From: Neonectria sp. B-13
Taxonomy: Eukaryota > Ascomycota > Sordariomycetes > Hypocreales > Nectriaceae
Reading direction: 5' to 3'
Length of the DNA stretch: 64,000 nt
Assembly: GCA_002682825.1 (NCBI GenBank)
Contig: NOKP01000040.1
Location: 154,565 to 218,564, forward strand
Shown here: piece after piece, positions 9,743 through 43,886 of the stretch
Position numbering within the stretch: position 1 is the stretch's first letter
Layout: every line of letters begins with the position of its first letter
Notes under the pieces: model-generated
Database searches by the model: none
Told to the model about the DNA's origin: nothing
What the model saw: the letters and a program-made list of their open reading frames with translations, nothing else
Position numbers and translations under genes: made by a program

Positions 9743-10776
9743 TTATAGTAATTTTAGCCTTAGTCAATATCATCTGATAGATTAAGACAACATAGTAGAT
9801 AACATATAGCAGTTAACACAGTAAGATGCTATGCCCAGCACCATCAATCCCAATAACTTAAACACAGTAAGCTTTCCCAGTAACATGGTTTGCATCAATA
9901 TCGTACCTTGAGCCTGTTTTTGCAACCCATCTAGGTCCCTCTCTCTGACCTTAATGTCCAATTCATGAAAAGCTTATCCTAAACCATAGCATATATAAAT
10001 GACTGTCTTTCGTCAAGCTGATAAGTCCGGCCAGCCTTCTTCCCTCCTTCTTAATACACTATAACACAGCATAATACAACCACAATGCATTCCGCTTTTC
10101 CCATTACCCACTGCATCTTGCAACCTAATGGCAAGAAATAGAGCCAAAAGGCATACAAAACAGGATACCATCACTCTCTAGATAGAGAGATCAAGCCTGC
10201 CAAGTACAAGCGGCAGCTTTACCGGGCCGGAATCTACAGCCTCAGCAGCTTCAAGTCCAGCCGCACAGCAGTCAGCACCATCCAAATGGTGCATCTAGCT
10301 ATATTCGGCTGCTGCTTGCTCCTTAACGATGGAGCTACTGAGGTCGATAACATCGGCTTCATCATGGAGGAGAAGACGCTGCTCAAAGCCCTTACCAAGC
10401 GATTAGAGGCTGGGTTAGACGATGAAGATAACGAAGTCATCGTCAACGAATTATCCAGAGAGGAATACGCCCTATGGTTCCAGGAGCTGCTGGGGTACGT
10501 GGAGCTGGTGCGGATGGCCAGCTAGTCTGCTGCGTCGAAGACAATGAGTCTTGGCCTGATGGGCATGGTACGAAAAGACTTACGCATCGTGAAATCGGGG
10601 GGAAGGATCATGTGCTGGGAATAGGGTTAAGGAAAAACTTAGACTGGACGGAAAAGGTAGATGGGTTCGGGTCAGATGCAAAGGTTAATAAAGAACTTTA
10701 AAACCAACCAGGCTCAAGACAAAGAAATCGATGCGTGACACAGTAATCATTACACATTAGGTTCCCTCATAGAGGG
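9743..10776 (+). mobile_element. RepB copy B3 (complete, lightly mutated reference copy)
   Basis: 1034 bp, from TTATAGTAATTTTAG to CATAGAGGG, flanked by the 14-bp duplication GTCCTTAGTAGTAT (9729-9742 and 10777-10790). It entered RepA A1 only 12 bp inside A1's left end. No terminal inverted repeats and no poly-A tail. Layout: 342-bp leader (its first 60 bp still AT-rich), a 146-codon frame interrupted once (10085-10525), 251-bp tail. GC content is far above the surrounding RIPed copies, so it is a young insertion. Confidence 0.85.
10085..10525 (+). pseudogene. RepB 146-residue protein frame with one in-frame TAG
   Basis: From ATG 10085 (context CCACAATGC) the frame runs 146 codons to the TAG at 10523. 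A single internal TAG at codon 19 (10139) fits a former TGG. The uninterrupted part from 10286 alone is 79 codons. The protein is probably helical and ends acidic. Landmarks: ILQP (11-14), KYKRQLY (41-47), VHLAIF (69-74), LLKALTKRLE (99-108), YALWFQELL (128-136). I recognise no named domain. It aligns over its length with the RepA frame (see the 37260-37700 entry). The same TAG occurs in copies B2 (13277) and B5 (47969), so it may be ancestral, a recoded or read-through stop, or a repeatedly hit RIP site. Confidence 0.6.
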
Positions 10777-11237
10777 GTCCTTAGTAGTATATATCTAAAG
10801 AAAGAGCTAAAGATTAAATAATATAAAAGAAAATAGAAAAAGCAATAGTATAATAGGCTTAATACTTAAGCCTAAAATAATAATAACATAAGAAGATAAA
10901 AGTTTTTACTATAAAGTTAAAATATAAGTTTTATTATTCTAATTAGCTAGAAAAGCTAAATCTTAAAAAAGCTAAACCTTAGAAAAGTTAAACCTTAGAA
11001 AAGCTAAATCTTAAAAAAGCTAAATCCTAGAAAGGTTAGATCTTAGAAAAAGCTAAAATCCCTTAGGATAAAAGCTTAACCTATAAGGTAACTTTTATAC
11101 TTTTTAGGCTTTTATATTCTATTTAACCTTTTATATAATATAATAACTATATTATTAATTATATAAAATAACTACTTTCTTCTAAATTATATTATAGCTT
11201 AATAAGCTCTTATTAAACAATACTTATAAGTACTTAT

Positions 11238-11367
11238 TTAGATATAATAGTCCTTAGTAGCATACACCTAGAGAAGGGGCTAAAGGTTAAACAGTATAAA
11301 AGAAAACAGAAAAAACAATAGTATAATAGGCTTAATACCCAAGCCTAAGGCAATAATGACTCAAGGA
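11238..11367 (+). mobile_element. RepA copy A2, 130-bp left-end fragment
   Basis: Begins TTAGATATAATAGTCC and stops at GACTCAAGGA, with a 14-bp duplication TTATAAGTACTTAT on both sides (11224-11237, 11368-11381). So it inserted as a truncated copy. It is little mutated, as expected of a repeat too short to trigger RIP. Confidence 0.8.
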
Positions 11368-11932
11368 TTATAAGTACTTATATAACCTATATAGCTTATT
11401 TTAAGTAGATTTAAGTGTTATTTCTAAGCTATAAAGTATAATTTAAAAGTTTAATCTATAAGATATAAAAGAGATTAAAATTGATTAATACTCTAAAGCT
11501 AAAGAATTAATCCAGTTAATAGTCTTTAGTTATTATATTCTACTATAAGATAGAATTTAGTCTAATAGAGTAATAGCTTAATAGATTATAATAGAATATA
11601 TCTTTCTAAAGGAGCTAGCTTTAAAGCTAGAAAGAAATAATATTATTATTAATATAAAGAAAAGGTTTATTAATAGTCTAAAGTATAATAATTATATCTT
11701 ATAGATTATATAGCTAATAAGTAATATTATATTAACTAATCTATAACTAAAGGAATAATACATTAGAAAGTAAAAGAATCCTATTATAATTATCTTTAAT
11801 ATTAACTATGAAGCTATATAGAGGGATTTAATAGAGAGAGTTTGAAGAGAGTAAAGGTTAATAATTAGATTTAAAATTTAAAGATGTATCCCTTTATTAA
11901 GCTTAAGCAAAGGAAATATATAACTATTTAAT

Positions 11933-12976
11933 CACTATTAAAACTACTATTTAAATTACTATTTCTATTTATCTATAATTACACTAAATAGTTATATATT
12001 TCCTTTGCTTAAGCTTAATAGGAGGATAGATCTTTGGATTTTAAACCTAATTATTAACTTTTACTCCCTCTAACTTCCTAGAACTCCCTCTACTAAATCT
12101 CTCTATACAGCTTTATAGCTAATATTAAAGATAACTAGATTCCCTTAGTTTTTAATATATTACTCTTTTAGCTATAGGTTAGTTAGAATAATATTATCTA
12201 TTAACTATATAATCTATAAAGTATAAATAGGATTATATAGCTTCTTAAGGAACTTTTTCTCTATAGTAGTAATATTATTATTCCTTTCTAGCTTTAGAGC
12301 TAGTCTCTTTAGAAAGAGCTATTCTATTATAATCTATTAAGCTATTATTATATTAAGTTATATTTCCTTTTATAATAGGATATTATAGCTAAAGACTACT
12401 AATTAGACTAACTCTTTAGGTTTAAAGTAGTTAATTATAAGCTATTTTATATACTTTAGGTTAAACTTTTAAGCTATAATTTATAGTATAGAAATAAAGC
12501 TTAAATATTCTTTTAATTTATTATATAGATTATATAAAAGCTTATATATATAGTTTAATAAGAGCTTATTAGGCTATAATATAATTTAAATAATAGTTAT
12601 TTTATACAATTAGTAGTATAGTTATTATATTATATAAAAGGTTAAATAGAATATAAAAAGGTAACCTAGAAAGTATAAAGATTACTTTATAGGCTAGGCT
12701 TTTATCCTAAGGGGTTTTAGCTTTTTCTAAGATCTAGCTTTTTTAAGATCTAGCTTTTCTAAGATCTAGCTTTTCTAAGATCTAGCCTTTCTAGCTAATT
12801 AGAGCAATAAAACTTATACTTTAACTTTATAGTAGAAACTTTTATCTCCTTGAGTTATTATTGCTTTGGGCTTAAGTATTAAGCTTATTATATTATTATT
12901 TTTTCTATTTTCTTTTATACTATTTAACCTTTAGCCCCTTCTCTAGGTATATACTACTAAGGATTATTATATCTAA
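11933..12976 (-). mobile_element. RepA copy A3, reverse, nested in A1
   Basis: Full length (about 1044 bp), four 16-bp leader repeats, flanked by the 15-bp duplication ATATAACTATTTAAT (11918-11932, 12977-12991). Heavily RIPed. Opposite orientation to A1 creates a long imperfect inverted repeat. Confidence 0.85.
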
Positions 12977-13862
12977 ATATAACTATTTAATATAATTATA
13001 GATAAGTAGAAATAATAGTTTAAATAATAGTTTTAATAGTAAAGCCTATTTTTATAATCTATTTAAGTTCTTTTTTCTAACCTTAATATCTAATTTATAA
13101 AAAGCTTATTCTAAACTATAGTATATATAAATAACTTAATTATCTTTTATTAAGTTAATAAGTCTAATTAGTCTTTTTTTTCTCTTTTTTAATATACTAT
13201 AATATAATATAATATAATTATAATACATTCTACTTTTACTATTACTTATTATATCTTATAATCTAATAGTAAGAAATAGAGCTATAAAGTATATAAAATA
13301 AAATACTATTACTCTTTAAATAGAAAGATTAAGTTAATTAAGTATAAGTAGTAACTTTATTAAACTAAAATTTAAAACCTTAATAGCTTTAAGTCTAACT
13401 ATATAATAATTAATACTATCTAAATAGTATATTTAGCTATATTTAATTATTATTTACTTTTAAATAATAAAAGTACTAAAGTTAATAATATTAGCTTTAT
13501 TAAAGAGAAAAAGGAGTTTGTAAATAAGCTTACTAAAAGATTAAAAGCTAGATTATATTAGGATAAAGCTATTATTAATATATTAACTAAAGATAAATAT
13601 ACTCTATAGTTCTTAGAGCTATTAAAGTATATAGAGCTAGTATAGATAGCTAGTTAGTTTAGTATTATAAAATTAGGAGGAAAAGAACTAATAAGAGTAG
13701 GATTATATAGATTTAAGAAAAGGCTTAGACTGAATAGAAAAGATAGATAGGTTTAGGTTAAATATAAAGATTAATAAAGAACTTTAAAACTAACTAAGCT
13801 TAAGATAAAGAAATTAATATATAATATAGTAATTATTATATATTAGGTTCTCTTATAAAAGA

Positions 13863-14305
13863 GTACTAATCCCTTATATATATATATATATTTATTTAAT
13901 ATATTAAATAAAAGCCTTAAGCTCTTTAGCTGTTAATACTTTAACTTAATTATTTATAGTAATTTTAGCCTTAGTTAATATTATCTAATAGATTAAGATA
14001 ATATAGTAAATAATATATAATAGTTAATACAATAAGATACTATACTTAGTACTATTAATTCTAATAACTTAAATATAGTAAGCTTTCTTAATAATATAGT
14101 TTATATTAATATTATACTTTAAGCCTATTTTTACAACCTATTTAGGTCCTTCTTTCTAACCTTAATGTTCAATTTATAAAAAGCTTATCCTAAACTATAA
14201 TACATATAAATAACTATTTCTTATTAAGTTAATAAGTTAATTTAACTTAATTATATAATAACTTACTATTATATATTACTATTATAATTTATATTACTTA
14301 CTATT
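13863..14305 (-). mobile_element. Gypsy-type LTR fragment (RepC), reverse, split by B4
   Basis: 13863-13953 plus 14255-14305 match the reverse complement of the LTR sequence at 31.68-31.88 kb (shared blocks around AAAAGCCTTAAGCTCTTTA and ATATAATAACTTACT). RIPed. Confidence 0.6.
13954..14240 (+). mobile_element. RepB copy B4, left-end fragment
   Basis: 287 bp starting TTATAGTAATTTTAGCC, truncated on the right, with a 14-bp duplication TTTAACTTAATTAT at 13940-13953 and 14241-14254. Like A2, it keeps the left end and loses the right. Confidence 0.8.
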
Positions 14306-15023
14306 CACTATTAAAACTACTATTTGAACTACTATTTCTACTTATCTATAATTGTACTAAATAGTTATATATTTCCTTTACTTAAGCTTAATAAGGGAAT
14401 AGATCTTTAGATTTTAAACTTAATTATTAACTTTTGCCCTCTCTAGCTTTCAACTCCCTCTACTAAATCCCTTTATATAGCTTTATAACTAATATTAGAA
14501 ATAACTATAATAGGATTCTCTTGCTTTCTAATATATTACTCCTTTAGTTATAGGTTAATTAGTATAATATTACTTATTAGCTATATAATCTATAAGATAT
14601 AGTTATTATACTTTAAACTATTAATAAACCTTTTCTCTATATTAGTAATATTATTATTCCTTTTTAGCTTTAAAGCTAGTCTCTTTAGAAAGACTTATTC
14701 TATTATTATCTATTAAGCTATTATTCTATTAGACTAAATTCTATCTTATAGTAAGATATAATAATTAAAGATTATTAATTAGACTAATTCCTTAGCTTTA
14801 GAGTATTAATTAGTTTTAATCTTTTTTATATCTTATAGATTAGACTTTTAAACTATAATTTATAGCTTAGAAATAAGGCTTAAATCTACTTAAAATAGAC
14901 TATATAGGTTATATAAGAGCTTATAAGTATAGCTTAATAAAAGCTTATTAGGCTATAGTGTAATTTAGAAGGAAGTAGTTATTATATATAATTGGTTGTA
15001 TAATTGTTATATTATATAGTATT
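14306..15023 (-). mobile_element. RepA copy A4, reverse, truncated
   Basis: Starts with the RepA right end (ACTATTAAAACTACTATTTG) and breaks off where the next copy, A5, begins at about 15024. The leader with its 16-bp repeats is missing. Confidence 0.7.
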
Positions 15024-16003
15024 ACTATTAAAACTACTATTTAAACTACTATTTTTACTTATCTATAATTATACTAAATTATATATTTCTTTTACTTAAG
15101 CTTAATAAAGGGATAGATCTTTAGATTTTAAACCTAATTATTAACTTTTACCCTCTTTAGCTTCCTAGAACTCCTTCTATTAAATCCCTCTATATAGCTT
15201 TATAGCTAATATTAAAGATAATCAGATTCTCTTAGTTTCTAATGTATTACTCCTTTAACTATAAATTAGTTAGAATAATATTACCTATTAACTATATAAT
15301 CTATAAGATATAAATAGGATTATATAGCTTCTTAAGGAACTTCTTTTCTATAGTAATAATATTATTATTCCTTTCTAGCTTTAGAGCTAGCCTCTCTAGA
15401 AAGAGTTATTCTATTATAATCTACTAAGTTATTATTATATTAAGCTATATTTCCTTTTATAATAGGATATTATAGTTAAAGACTACTAATTAGATTAACT
15501 CCTTAGGTCTAAAGTAGTTAATTATAAGCTATTTTATATACCTTAAGCTAAATATTTAAGTTATAATTTATAGTATAGAAATAAAACTTAAATATTCTTT
15601 TAATTTACTATATAGATTATATAAAAGCTTATATATATAGCTTAGTAAGAGCTTACTAAGCTATAGTATAATTCAAATAGTAGTTATTTTATACAATTAA
15701 TAGTATAATTATTATATTATATAAAAGGTTAAATAAAATATAAAAAGGTAAGTTAAGCTTTTATCCTAAGAGGTTTTAGCCTTTTCTAAGATCTAGCTTT
15801 TCTAAGATCTAGCTTTTCTAGCTGATTAAAGTAGTAAAACTTATACCTTAACTTTATAGTAAAAACTCTTATCTTCTTAAGTTATTATTACCTTAGGCTT
15901 AGGTATTAAGCCTATTATATTATTGTTTTTTCTATTTTCTTTTATACTATTTAATCTTTAGCTCTTTCTTTAGCTATATATTACTAAGAACTATTATATC
16001 TAA
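15024..16003 (-). mobile_element. RepA copy A5, reverse
   Basis: Both ends present; only two 16-bp leader repeats. No convincing target duplication: the left side joins A4, the right side the copia LTR region. Confidence 0.75.
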
Positions 16004-18547
16004 ATAGTATAAATAGTACTATATTATGTAATATTTATAGATATTTTCCTAGGACTTATTAAGCCTAATTATAGTTTATTAGCTTTAATAGCCTCTCTTA
16101 AAGATATAAGAGCTATATTAATACTTTTAGTATAGAAAAATATATAGGCTTATAGAACTCTTATAGCTTTATAATTATAGAGAAAAAATAAACTCTATTT
16201 ATAGGTTATAATAAGAGAAAAAATAAAAACTCTTATTCTTTTAATTTTAATCTTTTAAGATTAAAGAAAAAGGGTTATAGTTATAGTTATAATTATATAT
16301 ACTTAATAAAACCTTTATAATAAGAAACTTAAGTATTATTTATATATACATATTTTAATAAAAAACCTTTTAAGGAAAAATTAAAAGTTATAGTAAAGGA
16401 AAAGCTTTTAAGCTAGAAAAACCTTTATTATATTATCTAAGAAATAGTAAGTCTTTTAGTCTTATAAAGTCTATAGGTCCTAGGCTTTTAGTAAAGAAAT
16501 TAGCTATATTATCTTTACTTCTTATAGAAAATAGTTTAATATTTCCTTTTTTAACCTTATCTTTAGTAAAATAATAGGCTATATTAATATATTTAGATTT
16601 CTTATGAAATTCTGAATTTTCTACTATTTTCTTAGTAGCTTTATTATCTGTTAAAATAGGAGGAATAGTCCTATTATAACTTAAAGAGAGATTAATATTT
16701 AAATATTTATATAAATAAGATAAATATTTAGCCTCTTTAGTAGTCTTTCTTAGGGCTATATATTTAGATTTATAAGAGCTTAAAGCTACTGATTTCTATT
16801 TTATAGTATTCTAGCTAATAAGGTTATTAGCTATATAGAAATAGTATCTATTAGTAGATTTACTATCTTTTAGGCTAGAGCTCTAATTAGTATTAGTATA
16901 GCCTCTTAGAATACTAAAATAAGATTCTAGATTTATATTATAGTTATAATAAAGTCCTAAAGTAGGATATTTATTAAGGTATTTCTATATCTTATTTAAA
17001 GTATTAAAATAGCTTTTATTAGGTTTAAATGTAAATCTAAAGTAGTTATTAACTAGATATACTATATTAGGCTTAGTCTTTATAGATAGAAATAGTAAAG
17101 AACCTATTTCTTCTTAAAACTCTAGTATATCTTCCTTAGAAGCATTTATTTTAGCTTTTATAAGCTTTTCTCCTGCTTATAAAGGAGTATTAAAGATTTC
17201 TATAGATCCTTTATTATGCTATATAATTTTATTATATAGATATTTATTTTGACTTATATATAAGCCTTTTTTCTCTCTGTTTATAGTTATATACATTCCT
17301 AAGAAGTCTTTAACTTCTCTTAAAGACTAAACTTTAAGGTCTTTAAATAGCTTATAGATTATATCTTCTATATCTTTATTATTAGACCTAATAAATAGAA
17401 GATTATCTATATAAATAATTATACTTATTTTATAGTTATTATTAATAAATACCTCTTTATTAAATAGTATAAACTTAAATCTTAGATTATATAATTTATT
17501 AGAGAGATATTTATACTAGAGTTTAAGGCTCTATTTAAGGCTATATAAAGCTTTATTAAGCTTTAGAACTATAGAATTCTCTTCTAATTTATCTATATAT
17601 TCCTTTTTAAGCTTATAATAAGACTTTATATAGTCTTTACAGCCTATAGGTAATATAGTATAAATTTCTTTATTTATATTAGTATATATAAAAGCATTCT
17701 TTATATTATACTATAATATAGAATAATTATTAATTATAGCTAATATTAAGAGAATTCTTATAGTCTTAAGTCTAGCTATAGTTATAAAGGTTTTATTATA
17801 GTCTATACTAAATATTTAATTATAGCCTTATACTATCTATCTAGACTTATACTTAATAATAATATTATTATTATTAGTTTTTATCTTATAGACCTATTAG
17901 CCTCTTAAGGCTTTTCTTCCTTTAGGAAGGGTTTTTATAGTCTAACTATTTTGCCTTATAAGTTTATCTATTTCTGCTTTTATTAAAATATTCTATTTAT
18001 CTTTATCTATATTAGATAAAGCTTCTTTATAGGTATTAGGTTCTAAAGGATTTCCTTTATTTACTAGAGCTAGTATATTAGGGTATTCCTTATAATCCTT
18101 ATAGAAATTAACTAGCTTCTTAGGAATATTAACTAATAGTTTAGGCAAATTAGCCTCTCTTAATTTAATAGGCTAATTTATATTCTTATTAATAGTAGAG
18201 TTCCTAAGAATAGAAAGAGACTTAAAGTCTAAGCTATTTTTATAGTCTAGAAAGCAGTTTTCTAGTATAACTATATCCCTAGATATTATACTTTAGTGTT
18301 TATTATAGTCCTAGATTTTATAGCTATTTTCTAAATAGCTTATAATAATGCCTTTATATGCTTTAGTATTTAGTTTATTACTAAGGGTTTTATTCTTATA
18401 ATATATTATAGATTTAAAAACCTTTATATTTTCTAGATCTTCTAGTTTTATATATATATTATCTCTCTTTTCTAAAGAAGATAAATAGTTAATACTAGAA
18501 TGTAGGATTCTATTATAAATATAAGTTATAGCTTTTAAAGCTTCTCC

Positions 18548-18859
18548 CTATAGGTATTTAGGCAGATTAGCTATAAATAAAATAGCCCTTATTTTATTTA
18601 ATAAAGTCCTATTTATTCTCTTAGCTGCCCTATTAAGCTCTAAGGTATTAGGAGGGTTAGAATTATATTGTATACTACTTTTTAAGCAAAAAGGCCTTAA
18701 ATTATAAAGATATTCTTTAGTATTATCTAAAAAAACCTCCTTAATTTTTAAATTAAGACTATTATTTTTAGCTTTAGCTTTAAATTCTTTAAATTTAAGT
18801 AAAACCTTACTTTTATTCCTAATTAAATAGCTTTCTAAATATCTAGTCCCTTTATCCAT
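18548..18859 (-). pseudogene. Copia integrase core fragment
   Basis: Longest surviving open piece (103 codons) of the copia pol. It carries the integrase C-half pattern KSKVLLKFKEFKAKAKNN, a D-N-T near a former DNGGEY site, and RINRTLLNKIRAIL (family: ERxNRTLLexaRaml). It is continuous in the same sense with degraded pol sequence on both sides. Confidence 0.8.
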
Positions 18860-19470
18860 AAAGCTTATAAAGTAATAGTATTTATTGTATATAGGGATCC
18901 TAATAGGGCCTTAAATATCTATTACTATTTTATCTAGATATTTATAATCTTTATTAGAGCTTTTTCTATTAATTTTATTAATAGCTTTAGCTTTTATATA
19001 GTTTTTATACTGAATTACTTTTATAATATCTACCTTTTTTATATTATAATATTTATCTCTATTTCTATAGAGTATTTTCTTTAAGGATTTATAATTTAAA
19101 TACTCTAATCTTAAATACTAATTATATAAGTCTATATCTATAGCCTTATTATTATTATTATTTTCTTTATCTATAGATAAGATATTAGTAGTAAAGAAAA
19201 GACTTACCTTAGTCTTATCTTTATTACTAATAATAATAGGTATATAGTATAGATTATTCTCTTTAATTCCTTTAGTTATAATATCTTCTTTATTATTTAT
19301 AAGAAATAGCTTACTATTTCCTATAAAGGAATATCTATTATATAAAGAGAACTAACTAAGAATATTTACTCTTAATTTAGGGATAAAATAGTAGTTTCTT
19401 AGAATATATTTATTCTTATTATCTAGGAATCTAATAATTATATCTTTATAGCCTTTTATAATTAAGAAAG

Positions 19471-20531
19471 CACTATTAAAACTACTATTTGAACTACTGT
19501 TTCTGCTTATCCACGATTGCACTGAATCATGTGTTTCCTTTGCTTAAGCTTAACAGGGGGATAGATCTTTGGATTTTGAACCTAATTATTGACTTTTGCC
19601 CTCTCTAGCTTCCTAGAACTCCCTCCGCCAAATCCCTCCATGCTTTATAGCTAATGTTAAAGATGACCAGATTCTCTTACTTTCTAATACAGTCATTACT
19701 CCTTCAGTTGTAGGTTGGTTATTATAGTATTGCTTATTAGCTGTATAACCTATAAGATATAGTTATTATGCTTTAGACTATTAATAAACCTTTTCTCTAT
19801 ATTAGTAGTATTATTATTCCTTTCTAGCTTTAAAGCTAGCTTTTCTAGAAAGACCTATTCTATTATAATCTATTGAACTATTGCTTTATTAGGCTAGATT
19901 CTATCTTATAGTAAGATATAATAACTAAAGACTACTAATTAGACTAATTCCTTAGCCTTAGAGTATTGATTAGTTTTAACCTTTTTTATATCTTATAGAT
20001 TAGACTTTTAAACTATAATTTATAGCTTAGAAATAAGGCTTAGATCTGCTTGAAATAGGCTATATAGGTTATATAAAAGCCTATAGGTATAGCTTAGTAA
20101 GGGCTTACTGGGCTATAGTATGATTTAGAAGGCAGTTATCTTATATGATTGGTTATATAGTCTTTGTGTTATATGGAAGATTGGATGGAATGCAAAGGGC
20201 CTGGAAAGTATAAAGGCTAAGCTTTTATCCTAAGGGGTTTTAGCCTTTTCTAAGATCTAGCTTTTCTAAGGTCTAGCTTTTCTAAGATCTAGCTTTTCTA
20301 AGATCTAGCTTTTCTAAGATCTAGCTTTTCTAAGATCTAGCTTTTCTAGCTGATTAAGGTAGTAAAACTTATACCTTAACTTTATAGTAGAAACTTTTAT
20401 CTTCTTAAGTTATTATTACCTTAGGCTTAGGTATTAAGCCTATTATACTATTGTTTTTTCTATTTTCTTTTATACTGTTTAACCTTTAGCCCTTTCTCTA
20501 GGTATATATTACTAAGGACTATTATATCTAA
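19471..20531 (-). mobile_element. RepA copy A6, reverse, inside copia
   Basis: About 1061 bp with six 16-bp leader repeats. Flanks share ATAATTAAGAAA (left 19458 on, right 20532 on; right copy expanded by A-run slippage). Partly unmutated stretches near the right-end sequence (e.g. TGCTTATCCACGATTGCACT) mark it as younger than the copia host. Confidence 0.8.
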
Positions 20532-23928: not shown

Positions 23929-23936
23929 TATAAAAG
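23929..23936 (+). promoter_or_regulatory. TATA box of the HET gene
   Basis: TATAAAAG, 88 bp before the chosen ATG (24024). It argues against the longer in-frame ATG at 23940, which would lie before the expected transcription start. Confidence 0.6.
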
Positions 23937-24023
23937 TGGATGGTGAAACTAGAGCCTGAGTGCCAAAAACTTGTCCTCTACATCTACACAAAATTCGGGT
24001 GTTCCAAATTCGTGCTTTTCACT

Positions 24024-26167: not shown

Positions 26168-27336
26168 TTAGGAGTATTACTATTCAGGCTATAAGGTATT
26201 ACTATTCGGGCTATAACTCTACCTTTTCTATATGTATATAATACATATAACATAGTGTGACCCTACTCAAGCATTATACGTAGAAACGGGCCCCGTTTCC
26301 ACTTTTGGCCCAATTATATTTTTGGACCTCTACTAGGTTTATCGTTCTTAGAAACAGGGCCCGTTTCTACTTTTTGCATATTTCTGAAAACAATATGAAC
26401 AAAACACGAAACGCGCCCCGTTTCCAGTATGCTAAGACACGTACCCTTGTACAATCCCTGTAAGAATAAACTAAGTACTATATGTTAATCAGTCTATAGG
26501 GTTCTATTCCATCCTATTGCTTTACTAAAAGATACTAGCTTAGGCCTAACTTTAACATTAAAGAGTCTATTCTCATTGGATTAAACCCTAGCATCCTACT
26601 ACCCTATACTATATTAAGCAATTATTGCTAAAAAAAAAAAAGAATTCACTCTATACTCTATTAGATAATAATTTATACTGAGAAAACCAGGTTAGGATTA
26701 GGGAAAAAAAGGGAAATCTTTTTTTAAAAGTAGGGCAAATTTTTATTTAAGATAAAACTTTAGGAAAAATGTTAATAATTAGTATAGCTTTTATCTTAAT
26801 AGCTTTTTCCTAGATTTAATTAAAAAGGCTTTTATATTCTATTTTCTAATTAAGTTAAAGTATTATAATAAGGGCTAAGGGCTAAGTAGGCTAGCTGATT
26901 GCTAGTAAGGATATTATTGGATATAGAAGGGGGTAGCTATAAGGGAGGTTAAGAAGGGAAGAAATAGAGAGGTTTTTCTTTTTATTATTATCTTAAGAGA
27001 TAAAAACTAAAGAGCTTCTTACTATAGAAAGATAAGAAGGATAAGCTTATTAAGCTTAAAGCTCTTATCTTTATCTTTATTTACTAGAAAGAATTCTATA
27101 ATTATATTTAAATCTTTACTTAATTCTAAGTTAAACTTCTATCTTTTATAATACTAATTATTAAGCTAACTATAAGCCTTTTTAATACTTAACTAATATT
27201 CTTTTTTATTTATAACTTAATAATTAATCTTATAAGATATATTTTTATTAAAAGGTATTAAATACTAAATTGCTTAACTATATATATACTATTTAATATA
27301 GCTTAAAGTTAATTAACTAAGATATTTATAAGATAT
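26168..27336. other. Region downstream of the HET gene
   Basis: 26174-26215 holds a 20-bp unit repeated twice (GTATTACTATTC[A/G]GGCTATA). 26283-26424 holds three GC-rich palindromes. From about 26.64 kb the sequence is AT-rich, starting with an 11-bp A-run, and ends in the 50-bp direct repeat at about 27283-27335. No gene. Confidence 0.5.
26283..26424. repeat. Three spaced 17-bp GC-rich near-palindromes
   Basis: GAAACGGGCCCCGTTTC (26283-26299), GAAACAGGGCCCGTTTC (26351-26367) and GAAACGCGCCCCGTTTC (26408-26424), spaced 68 and 57 bp. They stand out in AT-rich 3' sequence; possible hairpins or protein sites. Confidence 0.6.
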
Positions 27337-28120
27337 TTAAATATAATAATCTTTAATAGTATATATCTGAAAAAAAAGAGTTAAAGATTAAATAATATAA
27401 AAGAAAATAGAAAAAACAATAGTATAATAGGCTTAATATCTAAGCTTAAGATAATAATAACTTAAGAAAATAAAAGTTTTTATTATAAAGTTAAAGTATA
27501 AGTTTTATTACTTTAATTAGCTAGAAAAGCTAAATCTTAGAAAAATTAAATCTTAGAAAAGCTAGATCTTAGAAAAGCTAAACCTTAGAAAAGCTAAATC
27601 TTAAAAAAGGCTAAAACCTCTTAGGATAAAAGCTTAATCTTTATACTTTCTAAATTACTCTTTTATATTCTATTTAACTTTCTATATAATATAATAATTA
27701 TATTATTAATTATATAAAATATTACTATTTGAATTATACTATAGTCTAATAAGCTTTTATTAAGCTATATATATAAGCTCTTATATAATTTATATAATAA
27801 ATTAAAAAAGTATTTAAGTTTTATTTTTATATTATAAATTATAACTTAAAAGTCTAATCTAAAGTATATAAAATAGTTTATAATTAACTACTTTAGACTT
27901 AAGAAATTAATCTAATTAATAGTTTTTAATTATAATATTTTATTATAATATAGAATTTAGCTTAATATAATAATAGTTTAATAGATTATAATAGAATAAT
28001 TCTTTCTAAAAAAACTAGTTTTAAAGCTAGAAAGAAATAATAATATTATTCTTATAAGAAAAAAGTTTCTTAAAAAGCTATATAACTCTATTTATACTTT
28101 ATAAATTATATAATTAATAG
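27337..28120 (+). mobile_element. RepA copy A8, right end missing
   Basis: Starts TTAAATATAATAATC (RIPed RepA left end) and runs through the leader repeats and the decayed frame to the point where A9 begins. Severely RIPed. Confidence 0.7.
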
Positions 28121-28123
28121 ATT

Positions 28124-28773
28124 ACTATTAAAACTACTATTTAAACTATTATTTTTACTTATTTATAATTATATTAAATAGTTATATATTTCCTTTGCTT
28201 AAGCTTAATAGAAGAATAGATCTTTAGATTTTAAACCTAATTATTAACTTTTATTCTTTCTAGCTTCTTAGAACTCTTTCTACTAAATCCTTTTATACTT
28301 TATAGCTAATATTAGAAATAATCATAAGATTCTCTTAGTTTCTAATATATTACTCCTTTAGCTATAAGTTAATTAGAATAATATTATCTATTAACTATAT
28401 AATCTATAAAGTATAAATAGGGTTATATAGCTTCTTAAGAAACTCCTTCTTTATAGTAGTAATATTATTATTCCTTTCTAGCTTTAGAGCTAATCTCTTT
28501 AGAAAGATCTATTCTATTATAATTTATTAAGCTATTATTATATTAAGTTATATTTCTTCTTATAATAGAATATTATAACTAAAAACTATTAATTAGATTA
28601 ATTTCTTAAGTCTAAAGTAATTAATTATATACTATTTTATATACTTTAAGTTAGATTTTTAAGCTATAATTTATAGTATAGAAATAAAACTTAGATATTT
28701 TCTTTAATTTATTATATAGATTATATAAGAGCTTATATATATAGCTTAATAAGAGCTTATTAAGCTATAGTAT
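28124..28773 (-). mobile_element. RepA copy A9, reverse, truncated
   Basis: Begins with the RepA right end and stops at GCTATAGTAT where A10 starts. With A10 it forms an inverted pair. Confidence 0.7.
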
Positions 28774-29819
28774 TTAAATATAATAGTTCTTAATAATATA
28801 TACTTAGAGAAAAGACTAAAGATTAAATAGTATAAAAGAAAATAGAAAAAACTATAGTATAATAAGCTTAATACTTAAGCCTAAAGTAATAATAACTTAA
28901 GGAGATAAAAGTTTCTATTATAAAGTTAAGATGTAAGTTTTACTATCTTAATCAACTAGAAAAGCTAGATCTTAAAAAAGCTAAATCTTAGAAAAGCTAA
29001 ATCTTAGAAAAGCTAGATCTTAGAAAAGCTAAACCTTAGAAAAGGCTAAAACCCCTTAGGATAAAAGCTTAGCTAACCTTTATACTTTCTAAGTTACTTA
29101 CCTCTTTATATTCTATTTAACCTTTTAAATAATATAATAATTATATTACTAATTATATAAGATAACTACTTCTATCTAAATTGCACTATAGTCTAATAAG
29201 CCCTTACTAAGCTATATATATAAGCTTTTATATAATCTATATATTAAATTAAAAGAATATTAAAGCTTTATTTCTATACTATAAATTATAACTTAAAAGT
29301 CTAACCTAAAGCATATAAAATAGCCTATAATCAATTACTTTAGACTTAAGAAATTAGTCTAATTAATAGTCTTTAGTTATAATATCCTACTATAAGATAG
29401 AATCTAGCTTAATATAGTAATAGCTTAGTAGATTATAATAGAATAGCTCTTTCTAGAAAGGCTAGCTCTAAAGCTAGAAAGGAATAGTAATATTACTACT
29501 ATAGAAAAGAAGTTCCTTAAGAAGCTATATAACTCTATCTCTACCCTATAGATTATATAGTTAATAGATAATATTATTCTAATTAACCTATATCTAAAGG
29601 AATAATACATTAGAAACTAAGGGAATCTAGTTATCTCTAACATTGGCTATAAAGCATAGAGAGATTTAATAGAGAGAGTTCTATAGAGGGGGCAAAAGTT
29701 AATAATTAGGTTTAAAATCCAAAGATCTATCCTTCTATTAAGCTTAAGTAAAGGAAATATATAATTCAGTATAATTGTAGATAGGTAGAAATAGTAGTTT
29801 AAATAGTAGTTTTAATAGT
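28774..29819 (+). mobile_element. RepA copy A10
   Basis: Both ends present (TTAAATATAATAG to TTTTAATAGT). No target duplication, so its flanks have been rearranged. Confidence 0.75.
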
Positions 29820-30460
29820 AATTATATATTTATATTAAAGATAAATTAATATTATAGTTTTAAATATTATTAAGCTTTAAAGTCTTAAAGTTTAATTATT
29901 TATTAAGAATATTAATCTTATTGATTAGTCTTTATTATAACTTTATATTCTTTAGAATAAGTATAAAAGGTATTTGTTTTTTTTTTCTTTTTAAATTATA
30001 GTAATAATCTTACTATTAATTGATTTTCTAGGTTTTCTTTTAAGAATAGAAATCTAAAGATTATAGATTTCTTTTAGGAATCCCTTATTATTCTTAGAAG
30101 GTTTTAGAATTCTATATTATATCTTTTTAATATACTTACTATCTTTTTCTATTATATATTATTCTATATTAAATAGAAATAATATTATATTAAAGTAATT
30201 AATACTTATTATATTATATAATCCTTTAGCTATAATAATAGTTTTTATATATTAATAGTTAGTAAATTAGATATCTTTATCTTTTAATACTAATTTATAC
30301 TTTTATTTAAACTTAGGCTTTTAATACTTACTTTTAAAATATCTTATTTCTTTATAGTTTTAATATTTAACTTAAGAATAGTTTTATTTTATAACTCTTA
30401 GTTCTATAGGACTAAGCTATATTTCTTAAAAGGTATTCTTATTTCTTTTCTTATTATTAT
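29820..30460. other. Unidentified AT-rich sequence
   Basis: 640 bp of heavily RIPed sequence between two RepA copies. Minus-strand translation has Lys/Ile/Leu-rich stretches that could derive from a retroelement gag, but no motif is convincing. Confidence 0.4.
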
Positions 30461-31479
30461 TTAGATATAATAATCCTTAGTAGTATATACCTAAAGAAGG
30501 AGCTAAAGGTTAAATAATATAAAAGAAAATAGAAAAAACAATAGTATAATAAGCTTAATACTTAAGCCTAAGGTAATAATAACTTAAGAAAATAAAAGTT
30601 TCTACAATAAAGTTAAGATATAAGTTTTATTGCCTTAATTAGCTAGAAAAGCTAGATCTTAGAAAAGCTAGATCTTAGAAAAGCTGAATCTTAGAAAAGC
30701 TAAACCTTAGAAAAGCTAGATCTTAGAAAAGGCTAAAACCCCTTAGGATAAAAGCCTAGCTAACCTCTATACTTTTCAAGTTACCTCTTTACATTCCATT
30801 CAACCTTCTACCTAATACAACAATTACATAACCAATCATATACAATAACTGCCTTCTGAATCACACTATAGCCTAGCAAGCCCTTACTAAGCTATACCTA
30901 TAGGCTCTTATACAACCTATATAGCCTATTTTAAGTAGATTTAAGTCTTATTTCTAAGCTATAAATTATAATTCAAAAGTCTAACCTATAAGATATAAAA
31001 GAGGTTAAAACTAATTAATACCTTAAGGCTAAGGAATTAGTCTAATTAATAGTCTTTAATTATTATATCCTATTATAAGATAGAATCTAGCCTAATAGAA
31101 TAATAGCCTAATAAATTATAATAGAATAGATCTTTCTAAAGGGGCTAGCTTTAAAGCTAGAAAGGAATAATAATATTACTAATATAGAGAAAAGGTTTAT
31201 TAATAGTCTAAAGCATAATAACTATATCTTATGGATTATATAACTAATAAGTAATACTATACTAACTAACCTATAACCAAAGGAGTAATATATTAGAAAG
31301 CAAGAGAATCCTACTGTATAGAGGGATTTAGTGGAAGGAGTTTGGAGGGGGCAAAAGTCAATAATTAGGTTTAAAATCCAAAGATCTATCCCCCTATTAA
31401 GCTTAAGCAAAGGAAATATATAATTTAGTATAATTGTAGATAAGTAGAAACAATAGTTCAAATAGTAGTTTTAATAGTG
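30461..31479 (+). mobile_element. RepA copy A11
   Basis: Full length, flanked by the 14-bp duplication TTTCTTATTATTAT (30447-30460, 31480-31493). Moderately RIPed. Confidence 0.85.
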
Positions 31480-31972
31480 TTTCTTATTATTATTTAAATA
31501 GCTTTTTTTACTTTTCTAAACCTTAAAAAATTCTTTTTTCTTTTTAATTTATCTTTTAAGTAGTTAATTATTAATAGTTATATAGAGCTTAGTATAAGTA
31601 TTAAAGCTTATAGATTAATCTAAAATCTTATAGATTTTATTTTTAACTTTATTATAATAGTTAAACTTAACTTAAAAGTCTAAAGTAGGTCTAAAGTATA
31701 TAAGTTAATAATTAAGTAAATTAGAATATTATAATAAGTAATATAGATTATAATAATAATATATAAAAGTAAGTTATTATATAACTAAGTAATATTATTA
31801 ATAGTTAAAGAGCTTAAGGCTTTTATTTAATATACTAAAGGAATATATATATAGATATAAGACTAATATAATTAAATAGTATTAAGTTATATTAAATAGT
31901 ATTTATTTAATATATATATACTTATAGTATTAAACTATATTAAATAAAGCTTATTTAATATATAAGTATTAT

Positions 31973-33032
31973 TTAGATATAATAGTCCTTAGTAGTATAC
32001 ACCTAGAGAAGGGGCTAAAGGTTAAACAGTATAAAAGAAAACAGAAAAAACAACAGTATAATAGGCTTAATACTCAAGCCTAAGGCAATAATGACTCAAG
32101 GAGATAAAAGTTTCTACTGTAAAGTTAAGGTGTAAGTTTTACTGCCCCAATCAGCTAGAAAAGCTAGATCTTAGAAAAGCTAGATCTTGGAAAAGCTAGA
32201 CCTTGGAAAAGCTAGATCTTAGAAAAGGCTAAAACCCCTTAGGATAAAAGCCTGGCCTATAAGGCTCTGCGCTTTCCAGGTTACCTCTTCACATTCCATC
32301 CGACCTTCTAAACAATATAATAACTATACTACTGATCGCACAAGATGACTGCCTTCCGAATCGCACTACAGCCCAGCGAGCCCTTGCTAAGCTATACCCA
32401 TAGGCTCTTATACAACCTATATGGCCTATTTCAAGAGGATCTAAGCCTTATTTCTAAGCTACAAATTGCAGTTTAAAAGTCTAACCTATAAGATATAAAA
32501 GAGGTTAAAACTAATTAATGCCCTAAGGCTAAGGAATTAGTCCAGTTAGTAGTCTTTGATTATTATATCCTACTATAAGATAGAATCTAGCCTAATAGAG
32601 TAATAGCCCAGTGGATTACAATAGAACAGGTCTTTCTAGAGGGGCTAGCTTTAAAGCTAGAAAGGAATAATAATACTACTAATATAGAGAAGAGGTTTAT
32701 TGATAGTCTAAAGCATAATGACTGTATCTCATAGGTCATACAGCTGATAAGCAACACTGTAACAACCAACCTGCAACCAAAGGAGTAATGACTGTATTAG
32801 AAAGCAAGAGAATCCTACTGATCGGCCATGAAGCGTGGAGGGATTTGGCAGAGGGAGTTGGAAGCCTGATGGTCGTTCCTAGCGTCAGCAGATGGAGGGG
32901 GCAAAAGTCAATAATTAGGTTCAAAATCCAAAGATCTATCCCCCCATTAAGCTCAAGCAAAGGAAACACGTGACTGTTCAGCGCAATCGCGGATAAGCAG
33001 AAACAGTAGTCCAAACAGTAGTTTCAACAGTA
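31973..33032 (+). mobile_element. RepA copy A12 (weakly mutated) inside the gypsy LTR
   Basis: 1060 bp, four 16-bp leader repeats, 13-bp duplication ATATAAGTATTAT at 31960-31972 and 33033-33045. Stretches such as the right end are nearly RIP-free, so it is a recent insertion. Confidence 0.85.
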
Positions 33033-33045
33033 ATATAAGTATTAT

Positions 33046-34860
33046 ATATTATAATAAGAAGGAAAAAGTAAGTACTAAGATAATTCTATTAATAGTAACT
33101 ATTTAGTTTTAACTTAAGCTATAATATAATATTTCTTTTCTATTAGTTTTATTCTTAAGGCCTATTAAATAGACCTTTTTTCTAAGAGGTAAGTCTTTAA
33201 TGTTTTTAGTCCTATAATTATTCTTATCCCTTTAACTAACTATAATATTCAATTATATCTTTAAGAACTTATTATATCTTAAAGTTTTATTTACTTATTA
33301 TAGTAATATTATTAATATTATTAAAAAGTTTAACTTTAAGATACTTTATTATTCTATTTATTTTAAAGTAAATTACTATTTCTATATTATTATAAAGAGA
33401 AAGTTATAATATAATTTCTATATAGAGAAAAAGTATATAAATTGTAATTTTAATAGTATATCTTTATAAGCTTATAGGTTTCTTATACTTATAGTATCTA
33501 TAGTATTAATTTATTATAGTTATTTATATTTCTTAAGAAAAGAATTATTTAAAGAAGTAAAAAGAGTAAGTTAAAACTAATCTCTTTAAGGCTTTTATAT
33601 ACTTATAATGTTTATATTATTAAGAGAAGTATCTTTATAAGAAGATAGCTAAAATAACTCATTAGAATTATAAGGATTTAAATGAACTAAAAGCAATAAA
33701 GTAATAGAATATTATTACTTACTTTAAGGCTCTTTCTAAGATTTAATTATTAAAGGATTATAAAGTAATTAAGTAAAGTACTATTAATTTAAGTACTTAT
33801 TTTATTTTATTTAACTTTAGTATTATTAGTAAAAGTTCTTTAGGAAGTATTATATATAAGTAAGGTTTTTAGTAGATTTCTATTAATTATTACTCTTAGG
33901 ATAGTTTTTCTATTTAATAAGATACTTAGTTTAATTATTTACTTTTTATATATCTAAAATTACTTTTACTATATACTCTTTTAATTCTTTAATTTTAATT
34001 TTATATTTATTATTAAATTTAGTATAAAGTATATCTTTTACTATCTTAAGAAGTAAGATATAAAAAACTAAGTAAAGTTTAACTTTTAATAGTAAGTTTA
34101 ATTAATAGTTATTTTCTAATATTTTCTTAATAATTTTATAAGATCTAATAAACTAATAATCTAATATTTTATTTTATTATTTTATTTTAATATTCTTTAT
34201 TATAAGATAGATTATATCTCCTTTCTAAAAGGATAGTCCTTTTATTCTTTTTAGATTATAGTATTTCTTTATCTAGTTTCTAATGAATTTAAGCTTAGTC
34301 TTAAGTTCTTTATATAGATTTCTTAATTTTTCTAATATAAGAATAGCTTTAAGAATGATTAATCTATCTTAGCTTATTCTATAAGTATTAAGATTAAATC
34401 TAAAGTTAATATATATTAGAGTAAGCTTTATACTTTTATTTATAATTATATTATAGTTTAATTATATAATTAATAGCTTTTTAATCTAATTATTCTATTT
34501 ATAGTTAATATAATATTAAAAGTACTATTCTAATATTTAGTTTATTTATTCTATTTAATTATCTATCTATAGTTAAAAAGCTATAGTAAGTTAATAGTTT
34601 AATCTTATATAGTTTATTAATAATTATTAAAACTTTAAAGTAAATAAAGATTCTTAGTTAAAGAGAATTTCTATAGAAAGCCTATAAATACTAATAATAT
34701 TTTATAAGAAGATATAAGTAAACTACTCTATATTTATTAATTCCTAGTAAGACATAAAATAGGAAAATTTTATAAGTCTATTTATAATAATAAGAATATT
34801 ATTATAAAAAGTTCTAATTATAAGGTTTTCTAATAGAGATAGTTTTATAATAAAGTCTAT
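33046..34860 (-). pseudogene. Gypsy integrase core, C-terminal domain and chromodomain, degraded
   Basis: Minus-strand translation from 34860 downward shows the integrase AYNN..H..GxSP region in decayed form, an ERxxKYYxxxR-like helix, KGDIIYL (family: xGDxVYL), a VFYILLLK block (family: HPVFHVSLL), and a chromodomain-like run with ILDI then YLIK-KNYPKSNN. All are interrupted by stops from C-to-T changes. Confidence 0.75.
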
Positions 34861-35894
34861 TACTATTAAAACTACTATTTGAACTACTATTTCTACTTAT
34901 TTATAATTATACTAAATTATATATTTCTTTTGCTTAAGCTTAATAAGGGGATAGATCTTTGGATTTTAAACCTAATTATTAACTTTTACCCCTTCTATAG
35001 AACTCCCTCTACCAAATCCCTCTATACAGCTTTATAGCTAATATTAAAGATAATTAGATTCCCTTAGTTTCTAATGTATTACTCCTTTAGCTATAAGTTA
35101 GTTAGAATAATATTACCTATTAACTATATAATCTATAAGATATAGATAGAATTATATAGCTTCTTAAGGAACTCCTTTTCTATAGTAGTAATATTACTAT
35201 TCCTTTCTAGCTTTAGAGCTAGTCTTTCTAAAAAGAGCTATTCTATTATAATCTATTAGGCTATTATTATATTAAGTTATATTTCCTTTTATAATAGGAT
35301 ATTATAGCTAAAGACTATTAATTAAACTAATTGCTTAAGTCTAAAGTAGTTAATTATAAGCTATTTTATATGCTTTAGACTAAACCTTTAAGCTATAATT
35401 TATAGTATAAAAATAAGATTTAAATATTCTTTTAATTTACTATATAGATTATATAAAAGCTTATATATATAGCTTAGTAAGAGCTTACTAAACTATAGTA
35501 TAATTTAGATAGAAATAGTTATCTTATATAATTAATAGTATAATTATTATATTATATAAAAGGTTAAATAGAATATAAAAGAATAACTTAAAAGGTATAA
35601 AGCCTTATAGATTAAGCTTTTATCCTAAGGGGTTTTAGCCTTTTCTAAGATCTAACTTTTCTAAGATTTAGCTTTTTTAAGATTTAGCTTTTCTAAGATC
35701 TAGCTTTTCTAACTGATTAGAGTAGTAAAACTTATATTTTAACTTTATAGTAGAAACCTTTATCTTCTTAAGTTATTATTACCTTAGGCTTAAGTATTAA
35801 GCTTATTATATTATTATTCTTTTTATTTTCTTTTATACTATTTAACCTTTAGTCTTTTCTCTAAGTATATACTACTAAGGATTATTATATCTAA
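34861..35894 (-). mobile_element. RepA copy A13, reverse, in gypsy integrase
   Basis: 1034 bp with the 14-bp duplication ATAATAAAGTCTAT (34847-34860, 35895-35908). Heavily RIPed. Confidence 0.85.
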
Positions 35895-36895
35895 ATAATA
35901 AAGTCTATAATAATAAAGTCTTAAGGTTATTTAGTAACTAATAGAAACTATAATTCTCTATAGAGTTTATAGTATTAAGCCTTAGTTTTATAATATTTAT
36001 TATATTAATTAGTAATAGTTTTTATTATTACTTTTATCTTAGAAAATTAATATATTAATCTAACTTTATTAAGAGTTTTATTAACTCTTTAATATCTATA
36101 AAATAGATACTTATATATTTCTTATATAAGTTAATATTAAAGTTCTTTAAGAACTTATTACTTATTAGTTTTCTTATCTTAAAGTAACTTATTATTATAT
36201 TATTAAATCTAAGTATAAAAGTTATTATAATTTATAATAATATAAGTATTTCCTAGTGTTTTTCTTATATTATCTACTACCTATTATATAGCTTTATACC
36301 TTAAGTATTCTATACTAAAGTCCTATTAATAGTAGATATTATTTAGATATAATAATCCTTAGTAGTATATACCTAGAGAAAGAACTAAAGATTAAATAGT
36401 ATAAAAGAAAATAGAAAAAATAATAGTATAATAGGCTTAATACTTAAGCCTAAGGCAATAATAACTTAAGAAGATAAAAGTTTCTATTATAAAGTTAAAG
36501 TATAAGTTTTACTATCTTAATCAGCTAGAAAAGCTAGATCTTAGAAAAGCTAGATCTTAGAAAAGCTAGATCTTAGAAAAGCTAAATCTTAAAAAAGCTA
36601 GATCTTAAAAAAGCTAGACCTTAGAAAAGCTAGATCTTAGAAAAGGCTAAAACCCCTTAGGATAAAAGCTTAGCCTTTATACTTTCTAGGCTCTTTATAT
36701 TCCATTCAACCTTTTACCTAATACAATAACTATACAATCAATTATATATAATAACTACCTTCTAAATCACACTATAGCTTAGTAAGCCCTTACTAAGCTA
36801 TATCTATAGGCTTTTATATAACTTATATAGCCTATTTCAAGTAGATTTAAGCTTTATTTCTAAGCTATAAATTATAGTTTAAAAGTCTAATCTAT

Positions 36896-37957
36896 TTAGA
36901 TATAATAGTCCTTAGTAGCACACACCTAGAGAAGGGGCTAAAGGTTAAATAATATAAAAGAAAACAGAAAAAATAACAGTATAATAGGCTTAATACCCAA
37001 GCCTAAGGCAACAATGACTCAAGGAGATAAAAGTTTCTGCTGTAAAGTTAAGGTATAAGTTTTGCTGCCCCAATCAGCTAGAAAAGCTAGATCTTGGAAA
37101 AGCTAGATCTTGGAAAAGCTAGACCTTGGAAAAGCTAGATCTTGGAAAAGGCTAAAACCCCTTAGGATAAAAGCCCGGCTAACCTCTGCGCTTTCCAGGC
37201 TCTTCACATTCCATCCGACCTTCCAAACAACACAACAACCACACCACCAATCGCACAAGATGACCTTCCGAATCGTACTACAGCCCGGCGAGCCCTCGCC
37301 AAGCTACACCCACAGGCTCTTATACAACCTATATAGCCTATTTCAAGAGGATCCAAGCCTCATTTCTAAGCTGCAAATTGCAGTTCAAAAGTCTAACCTA
37401 CAAGATATAAAAGAGGTCAAAACCGATCAATGCCCTAAGGCTAAGGAATTAGTCCAATTAGTAGTCTTTAGTTATTATATCCTACTATAAGATAGAATCC
37501 AGCCTAATAGAGTAATAGCCTAGTAGATTACAATAGAACAGATCTTTCTAAAGGGGCTAGCTTCAAAGCTAGAAAGGAACAGCAATACTACCAATGTAGA
37601 GAAGAGGTTCATTAATAGTCTAAAGCACAATAACTATATCTTATGGGTCATACAGCTGATGAGCAACGCTGTAACAACCAACCTACAACCGAAGGAGTGA
37701 TGCATTAGAAAGCGAGAGAATCCTACTATGGTCATCTCTAACATCGGCCATGAAGCTGCGTGGAGGGATTTAGCAGAGGGAGTTCTAGGAAGCCTAATGG
37801 TCGTTCCTAGCGTCAGCGGATGGAGGGGGCAAAAGTCAATAATTAGGTTCAAAATCCAAAGATCTATCCCCCTGTTAAGCTCAAGCAAAGGAAACACATG
37901 ATTCAGCGCAATCGCAGATAAGCAGAAACAGTAGTCCAAACAGTAGTTTCAACAGTG
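36896..37957 (+). mobile_element. RepA copy A15 (complete, least mutated reference copy), nested in A14
   Basis: 1062 bp from TTAGATATAATAGTCC to GTTTCAACAGTG, flanked by the 15-bp duplication AAAAGTCTAATCTAT (36881-36895, 37958-37972). Leader 364 bp with four tandem AAAAGCTAGATCTTGG units (37081-37148), then a 146-codon frame (37260-37700) and a 257-bp tail. No terminal inverted repeats, no poly-A. GC content is much higher than in the host copy A14. Confidence 0.9.
37260..37700 (+). pseudogene. RepA 146-residue protein frame, broken by a few RIP-type stops
   Basis: From ATG 37260 (ACAAGATGA) the frame runs exactly 146 codons to the TGA at 37698. It is broken at codon 77 (TAA, from CAA) and at codons 88-89 (TAG TAG, from CAG/TGG). 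Landmarks: IVLQP (5-9), ISKLQIAV (35-42), VQLVVF (65-70), LKGLASKLE (97-105), YILWVIQL (126-133). Both the length and the spacing of these blocks match the RepB frame (ILQP, VHLAIF, LLKALTKRLE, YALWFQELL), suggesting distant homology. No named domain recognised. The open track upstream of the ATG (from 37110) covers the 16-bp repeats and is probably leader. Confidence 0.6.
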
Positions 37958-43837: not shown

Positions 43838-43886
43838 ATTATTCAAGTACGCATTGGGTTAGTGGCTGTGCAGGAGGTTATGGGTT

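Follow-up and report, generated by a model that had tools for sequence, protein, structure and literature searches.

Retrotransposed copies of spliced LINE (long interspersed nuclear element) RNA are known from human cells, where LINE-1 RNA spliced within its 5' untranslated region (UTR), or from the 5' UTR to open reading frame 1 (ORF1), gives rise to SpIREs (PMC5860796). A related arrangement has been built as a laboratory tool, the mneoI cassette, in which an antisense gene with its own promoter sits in the LINE 3' UTR, is split by an intron oriented with the LINE, and is made whole only by retrotransposition (PMC5860796). Here, RepA and RepB are described, two families of about 1 kb in the fungus Neonectria sp. 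B-13, represented by copies A15 and B3 in a stretch of 64,000 nucleotides of contig NOKP01000040.1 (positions 154,565 to 218,564, forward strand; hereafter the window) from an assembly of 61 Mb and 123 contigs. Judged from sequence, both families appear to be non-autonomous retrocopies of the spliced 3'-terminal RNA of two sister LINEs, and to carry an antisense gene, a reading to which a probability of roughly 0.8 is given; this gene would be switched on by retrotransposition. As far as is known, human SpIREs are the nearest natural relative of this arrangement and the mneoI cassette is the nearest design.

Comparison with described systems

Like SpIREs, RepA and RepB appear to be retrotransposed copies of spliced LINE RNA, and the copies lack introns that are present in the source LINE. 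They differ from SpIREs, which keep the LINE 5' end and coding region, in that the copies begin at the end of ORF2, the 3' region of the RepB source holds nine introns, the RNA is short and always has the same 5' end, and an antisense frame is conserved (PMC5860796). The RepB source resembles the mneoI cassette in having an antisense coding frame that is split by introns in the LINE sense and uninterrupted in the copies; however, the cassette is man-made and has one intron, whereas the RepB source is natural, has three introns in the frame and another upstream, and shows its expression signals as motifs only (PMC5860796). A small protein is also encoded by Eg-R1/ROPIP1, a non-autonomous retroelement of the barley powdery mildew fungus; compared by description only, it is presented in the available part of the source with no mention of an antisense gene holding sense introns (PMC6022598). 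The trait of an antisense gene with introns recurs in nuclear group I introns, whose antisense homing endonuclease genes hold spliceosomal introns, although these are not retrotransposons and, from the part of the source available, are apparently not gated by copying (PMC9548176). In the literature as covered by titles and abstract openings, with broad queries covered in part, neither a natural antisense gene gated by LINE-sense introns nor an intron-rich 3' region of a fungal LINE was found.

The source elements probably belong to the Tad1-like LINEs, with which (relatives P0001-P0005) they share an ORF2 with endonuclease (EN) and reverse transcriptase (RT), target-site duplications (TSDs) and 5' truncation of mobilised copies. 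They depart from the usual pattern of that clade in having introns both in ORF2 and in the 3' region, in amplifying nothing but the spliced 3' end and in lacking a poly-A tail. In pairs of short interspersed nuclear elements (SINEs) and LINEs, the two partners share 3' ends, and the short non-autonomous RNA uses the 3' recognition sequence of the LINE. RepA and RepB are unlike such pairs in that they follow the LINE 3' region collinearly as far as it was read, give no tRNA or Rfam match above chance and hold a protein frame. A SINE transcribed by RNA polymerase III, with a head of tRNA, 5S or 7SL origin, was likewise rejected, as no tRNA lies in the window and an Rfam search of window positions 9000-48500 gave two matches at chance level (E 2.2 and 3.1), both outside B3 and A15.

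Insertion by target-primed reverse transcription

Left-end matches with at most two mismatches are found at 685 places in the genome for RepA and 181 for RepB, and right-end patterns, searched at differing stringency, at 859 and 117 places; mirror-image contigs raise all these counts, those of the left ends by as much as a factor of about two. The two are thus dispersed families; that they are mobile had been proposed in an original prediction made from the window's sequence. Contigs C20 and C114 mirror themselves, the coordinates of paired matches adding up to the length of the contig to within 10 bases, and C1, C63 and C64 do so in part, around an inner centre. Such mirror-image contigs suggest an assembly artefact, since the duplicates are unmutated in a genome in which repeat-induced point mutation (RIP) is active.

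RepA and RepB were inserted by target-primed reverse transcription (TPRT) starting at the left end, and the copies show both TSDs, of about 14 bp, and truncation at one end. When 30 loci anchored at the left end were surveyed per family and identical sequences were dropped, 43 distinct loci were left, 29 of which had resolved TSDs of 12-18 bp (13-16 bp in 26 of the 29); in a control in which left flanks were swapped among loci, a 12-bp match was seen in 5/94 and 6/110 cases. In family A, 15 of 20 loci were resolved, and each of these inserts, one of them 1463 nt in length, ends at the RepA 5' terminus. Family B gave 14 resolved loci out of 23, with nine full inserts ending at GAGGG and five truncated ones of 32, 70, 73, 179 and 272 nt. 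No insert at the 29 resolved loci extends past the 5' terminus of its family, and several copies that retain the left end break off early on the other side, where they carry duplications that match. Because the left end is retained and truncation occurs solely at the right, the left end is the 3' end of the RNA and the start of reverse transcription, and the 146-codon frame of each family is therefore antisense to the mobile RNA. The TSDs, this orientation and the source introns described below had been overlooked in the original prediction.

As had been stated earlier, the ends compared by eye show no terminal inverted repeats and no poly-A. A microsatellite 3' tail is also missing, and the copies end in ..CTAA or ..ATAA right at the TSD; some LINEs are known that lack a poly-A or microsatellite tail.

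Source LINEs and splicing of their RNA

LINE endonuclease domains are found at 21 places in the genome, and at two of these lie the loci from which RepB and RepA appear to stem. The LINE-B source, the one RepB locus found to bear introns, is locus L089 on contig C114, whose ORF2 holds RVT_1 (E 9e-35) and PF14529 (E 2e-17); RepB starts 17 nt ahead of the ORF2 stop and is then collinear with the locus to the end of its read sequence, which leaves the last 128 nt of RepB uncovered. The RepA 5' end lies on contig C35, 31 nt past the probable stop of a 1238-codon LINE frame with EN and RT matches, this stop being assigned to the frame by coordinates and not by reading through the whole gene, and the 152 nt directly upstream occur once in the genome, at C35. 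Both source loci carry an apurinic/apyrimidinic (APE)-type endonuclease and an RT in one ORF, as elements without long terminal repeats (non-LTR elements) do. The earlier suggestion that an unseen partner mobilises the two families is thus supported, with these LINEs as the probable partner. Two explanations of the 5' ends were considered: a ribosome footprint, suggested by the 17 nt before the stop in RepB, does not carry over to RepA, and a hairpin stop is unconvincing in both families (CCCTC-TAT-GAGGG in RepB, z -1.53; RepA, z -1.45).

The RTs of LINE-A and LINE-B are 51% identical, whereas the next-scoring LINEs reach 36-39% over most of the query and up to 47% in shorter matches; among the matches listed, identity above 51% is found only at the mirror places and in a fragment on C114. 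This fragment (C114:973817-974157) lies about 8 kb from the source LINE and shows 65-76% protein identity to the LINE-B RT. Further LINEs lie on C103, C106, C102, C6 and C51; their open frames span 517-899 codons, their RTs are 36-43% identical, and additional spliced families may be found in their 3' regions.

ORF2 of L089 is itself interrupted by two introns, whose removal gives a reading of 1211 residues with a start that is not fixed, and a further GT..AG stretch was seen by eye just upstream of this reading. The spliced ORF2 aligns across the junctions with relatives from Fusarium, Monosporascus, Colletotrichum and Neonectria, some of them at one junction only. One such relative, P0003 of Fusarium nematophilum (C-terminal HSLFEGT, against HSLYEGT in L089), has an apparently unspliced stretch at the position of the second L089 intron, which suggests that this intron is old in the clade.

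Splicing of the 3' region is seen when L089 is compared with the 16 distinct full RepB copies, from which nine segments are missing, all of them GT..AG after sliding and seven with a CTAAC- or CTAAT-like branch site. The copies use two alternative acceptors at introns 2 and 3, four of them hold a 19-nt cassette exon from within intron 4, and three (B3, L007 and L078) retain intron 5, where others use neighbouring acceptors. Intron 4 sequence is found only at C114 and its mirror place, so the copies stem from that locus, from its earlier state or from a lost twin. In RepA, 52 distinct full copies (partial copies and longer joins excluded) vary combinatorially at several positions, and the C35 source, in the 150 bases read, holds one intron of the form GTAAGT...CTAAC...GCTTAG/TGACAG/CCACCGTCAG, in which each of the three acceptors of GCTTAG/TGACAG/CCACCGTCAG is used by RepA copies. 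Introns also probably lie within the RepA antisense frame, to which N-terminal length variants of 3 nt and a span of 2027 bp point. That the copies derive from spliced LINE 3'-end RNA with a fixed 5' end is near certain for RepB and very likely for RepA. It had been anticipated that longer genomic copies might prove both families to be internal pieces of known transposons; this is so for the class of element, as the LINE loci show, yet the pieces are unusual in being spliced, and their frame lies on the strand opposite to the mobile RNA.

The antisense frame

Reading of B3 and A15 bore out the original prediction in coordinates, lengths, TTA starts and CCTTAGT motifs, and in the position and length of the 146-codon frames, which are nevertheless not open in either copy (Table 1). 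The predicted relation of the two proteins was confirmed by profile comparison: the antisense-frame profiles of RepA and RepB match with hhalign at a probability of 95.1 and E 3.2e-8 over 71 columns with 32% identity, and the other 35 frame pairs reach at best a probability of 1.39 and an E of 0.037 (input, 21 of 52 RepA and 9 of 16 RepB copies with a regional GC of at least 0.30 and a frame length that is a multiple of three). At the DNA level almost no similarity had been claimed, and a RepB DNA profile indeed scores RepA copies no higher than shuffled controls.

The length of the antisense frame is a multiple of three in 52/52 RepA and 15/16 RepB copies, with RepA leader lengths falling into residues 0/1/2 as 13/24/15 and tail lengths as 11/19/22. 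In copies of one length (14 of subfamily A1, 9 of A2 and 6 of RepB), stop columns without a RIP precursor codon number 0/16, 2/15 and 1/9, respectively. The other five frames of A1 and RepB have 4-13 such columns, and coding on the sense strand was rejected on this count. In one sequence, this frame has GC values of 0.57/0.38/0.69 at its three codon positions and, among the frames, comes nearest to ORF2 in its use of synonymous codons. Upstream of the ATGs, promoter-like motifs are found at 91 nt in RepB (TATAAA) and 93 nt in RepA (ATAAAA), and an AATAAA lies 108 nt past the RepB frame stop, A15 having only AATAAT; these are candidate motifs for the promoter and poly(A) signal of the antisense gene. 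Within L089, the frame has 146 codons once introns 6, 7 and 8 (52, 55 and 52 nt) are removed and meets a stop after 11 codons if unspliced, and intron 9 sits between the TATA motif and the ATG.

With RepB alone as the query, no antisense protein was found in the databases, and a query with an alignment of six sequences gave one hit, P0063, a stop-free RepA-type frame of 92 residues on a 1133-bp ENA contig. No known protein family or fold was matched above chance, and AlphaFold2 modelling of the protein gave a mean predicted local distance difference test (pLDDT) score of 40.6, too low to be informative. The antisense frame is likely a genuine, conserved protein-coding gene.

RIP and divergence of subfamilies

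The composite RIP index is -0.79 in the source exons and -0.74 in ORF2, and ranges from -0.68 to 1.21 in RepB copies. RIP needs a minimum length of duplicate, known from Neurospora. The source exons are 19-192 nt long, the last about 261 nt, and such short exons may keep the source below this length and so hide it, despite its RIP-mutated copies. Somewhat less likely than not, the introns exist or survive chiefly for this reason, as a shield against RIP: the source would have no more than short stretches in common with its spliced copies and so escape recognition as duplicated DNA, the antisense gene being secondary. The unmutated state of these exons beside many mutated copies would agree with such a shield, as would the ORF2 bodies of the two LINEs, which are single-copy save for the mirror place and the fragment; on the other hand, ORF2, which is not amplified, has introns too, and the length limit of RIP is the one known from Neurospora. 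A shield is also compatible with a retrotransposition-switched antisense gene.

Subfamilies were compared by transversions alone, so that RIP is excluded, and the differences are nearly confined to the frame, at 28/432 sites in RepA against 1/578 outside it, and 14/429 in RepB against 0/527. Constrained flanks with a fast or diversifying frame would fit this pattern, as would an exchanged middle segment. Hypermutation specific to the frame was rejected: within subfamilies, transversions per site come to 0.002-0.006 for the frame and 0.0003-0.0056 for the flanks and are not consistently more frequent in the frame, its rate lying below both flanks in A1, above both in A2 and B2, and between them in B1.

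Proposed mechanism and its alternatives

The template RNA has a fixed first base close to where ORF2 ends, is spliced, often alternatively, and is then reverse-transcribed at the target site by TPRT to give a spliced copy. In the RepB source, three sense introns split the antisense frame and a fourth parts the TATA motif from the ATG, and copying would restore both. Expression of the antisense gene would presumably be confined to new copies and last until these are mutated by RIP, so that the LINE would carry a gene that its retrotransposition activates, a natural counterpart of mneoI. The leading guess for the role of the protein is feedback on retrotransposition or on host silencing. We incline towards such natural gating, in which the protein would come solely from spliced copies that are newly inserted; the leaning comes from the anatomy of the RepB source, with use of the gene remaining a prediction.

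Several observations weigh against the proposed origin and its gated gene. The position of the RepB 5' end relative to the ORF2 stop is not matched by RepA, and no TSD was found at 14 of the 43 anchored loci. Among the 16 RepB copies, three have 5 extra nt at intron 9 that no L089 acceptor explains, L070 carries a short unexplained insert at intron 4, and L077 has lost the frame; six more bases are absent at intron 8 in seven copies, for which L089 also gives no explanation. The second RepB subgroup differs by transversions from the first, L089-like one, so that today's L089 is not its direct template. For LINE-A, 351 bases of the locus were read, and introns in the RepA frame are therefore inferred; two RepA exon patterns, belonging to one subfamily, have no match to the C35 source among the first 100 matches listed. 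Nine introns in about 1 kb of exons would hit any frame of this size, and the arrangement thus need not have been selected. Finally, subfamily transversions are not concentrated at third positions (15/7/6 in RepA and 4/4/6 in RepB), and recent purifying selection is thus not seen.

It has also been considered that both LINEs are domesticated host genes and the copies accidental by-products. This is suggested by the single copies with long open frames and by the introns of LINE-B ORF2, across which homologues align, but we regard it as unlikely, given that the copies number in the hundreds and are precise at both ends, which resembles the output of an efficient and specific process and that other LINEs with long open frames are present in the same genome. 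A little less likely still, the anatomy would be as described but the antisense gene would be a passenger, captured long ago in the LINE 3' region, its likeness between RepA and RepB inherited and its expression from copies without a role. Such a passenger would agree with the lack of third-position enrichment, the RIP-mutated state of most copies and the lack of a known domain in the protein; it is harder to reconcile with a similarity specific to the frame where that of the DNA is undetectable, with a frame length preserved in 67/68 copies as leader and tail lengths shift freely, and with promoter-like motifs at nearly equal distances from both ATGs. The earlier suggestion of a new superfamily of small elements, taken as autonomous and mobile in the direction of the frame, can be dismissed, as can a DNA transposon, in spite of the one layout shared by two families, as the copies with resolved TSDs are truncated only at the end opposite the left end and both families, being 3'-terminal LINE pieces, extend upstream into LINE loci at their sources.

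Features of the window

Coordinates of the two named copies and of two truncated ones are given in Table 1. B3 is inserted within a RepA copy, whose match picks up again at 10777, and A15 within another RepA copy. At window positions 37080-37150, ahead of the motif that resembles an antisense promoter, RepA also has a 16-bp unit (about GGAAAAGCTAGATCTT) repeated in an array that varies. Repeated AT-rich DNA that was assigned to neither family lies at 16000-19400, 33000-34900, 38500-39600 and 43400-44500.

Table 1. RepA and RepB features, in window coordinates.
Feature	Position	Strand	Remarks
RepB copy B3	9743..10776	- (LINE-sense strand)	RNA 5' end 10776, 3' end 9743; spliced LINE-B 3'-end retrocopy
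B3 TSD, first copy	9729..9742		GTCCTTAGTAGTAT
B3 TSD, second copy	10777..10790		GTCCTTAGTAGTAT
B3 antisense 146-codon frame	10085..10525	+	one internal stop, RIP-type
B3 TATAAA, candidate motif of antisense gene	9994..9999	+	91 nt ahead of ATG; equal distance in spliced source
B3 AATAAA, poly(A)-signal-like motif	10687..10692	+	3' of antisense frame; homologous motif in L089
B3 retained intron 5	10530..10583	-	54 nt, GTAAGT..GCAG; missing from 13/16 distinct full RepB copies
RepA copy A15	36896..37957	-	RNA 5' end 37957, 3' end 36896; spliced LINE-A 3'-end retrocopy (very likely)
A15 TSD, first copy	36881..36895		AAAAGTCTAATCTAT
A15 TSD, second copy	37958..37972		AAAAGTCTAATCTAT
A15 antisense 146-codon frame	37260..37700	+	three internal stops, RIP-type
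A15 ATAAAA, candidate motif of antisense gene	37167..37172	+	93 nt ahead of ATG
5'-truncated RepA copy	11238..11367	-	TSD TTATAAGTACTTAT; reveals which end is the RNA 3' end
5'-truncated RepB copy	13954..14237	-	TSD core TTTAACTTAATTAT, one mismatch in 17

Implications

Retrotransposition assays use a man-made antisense gene that a sense intron interrupts, and evolution appears to have built such a gene here, with an antisense protein that is still recognisable although the two LINEs share only 51% of their RT residues. Each insertion preserves one splice form, and the copies therefore record the alternative splicing of the source RNA. If the arrangement works as proposed, retrotransposons can carry genes that are expressed only by their offspring copies, and the introns may also hide the source from RIP. 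An element of this kind could detect or regulate its own mobility, and in a fungus with active RIP the expression of its gene would be limited to the interval between insertion and the next sexual cycle.

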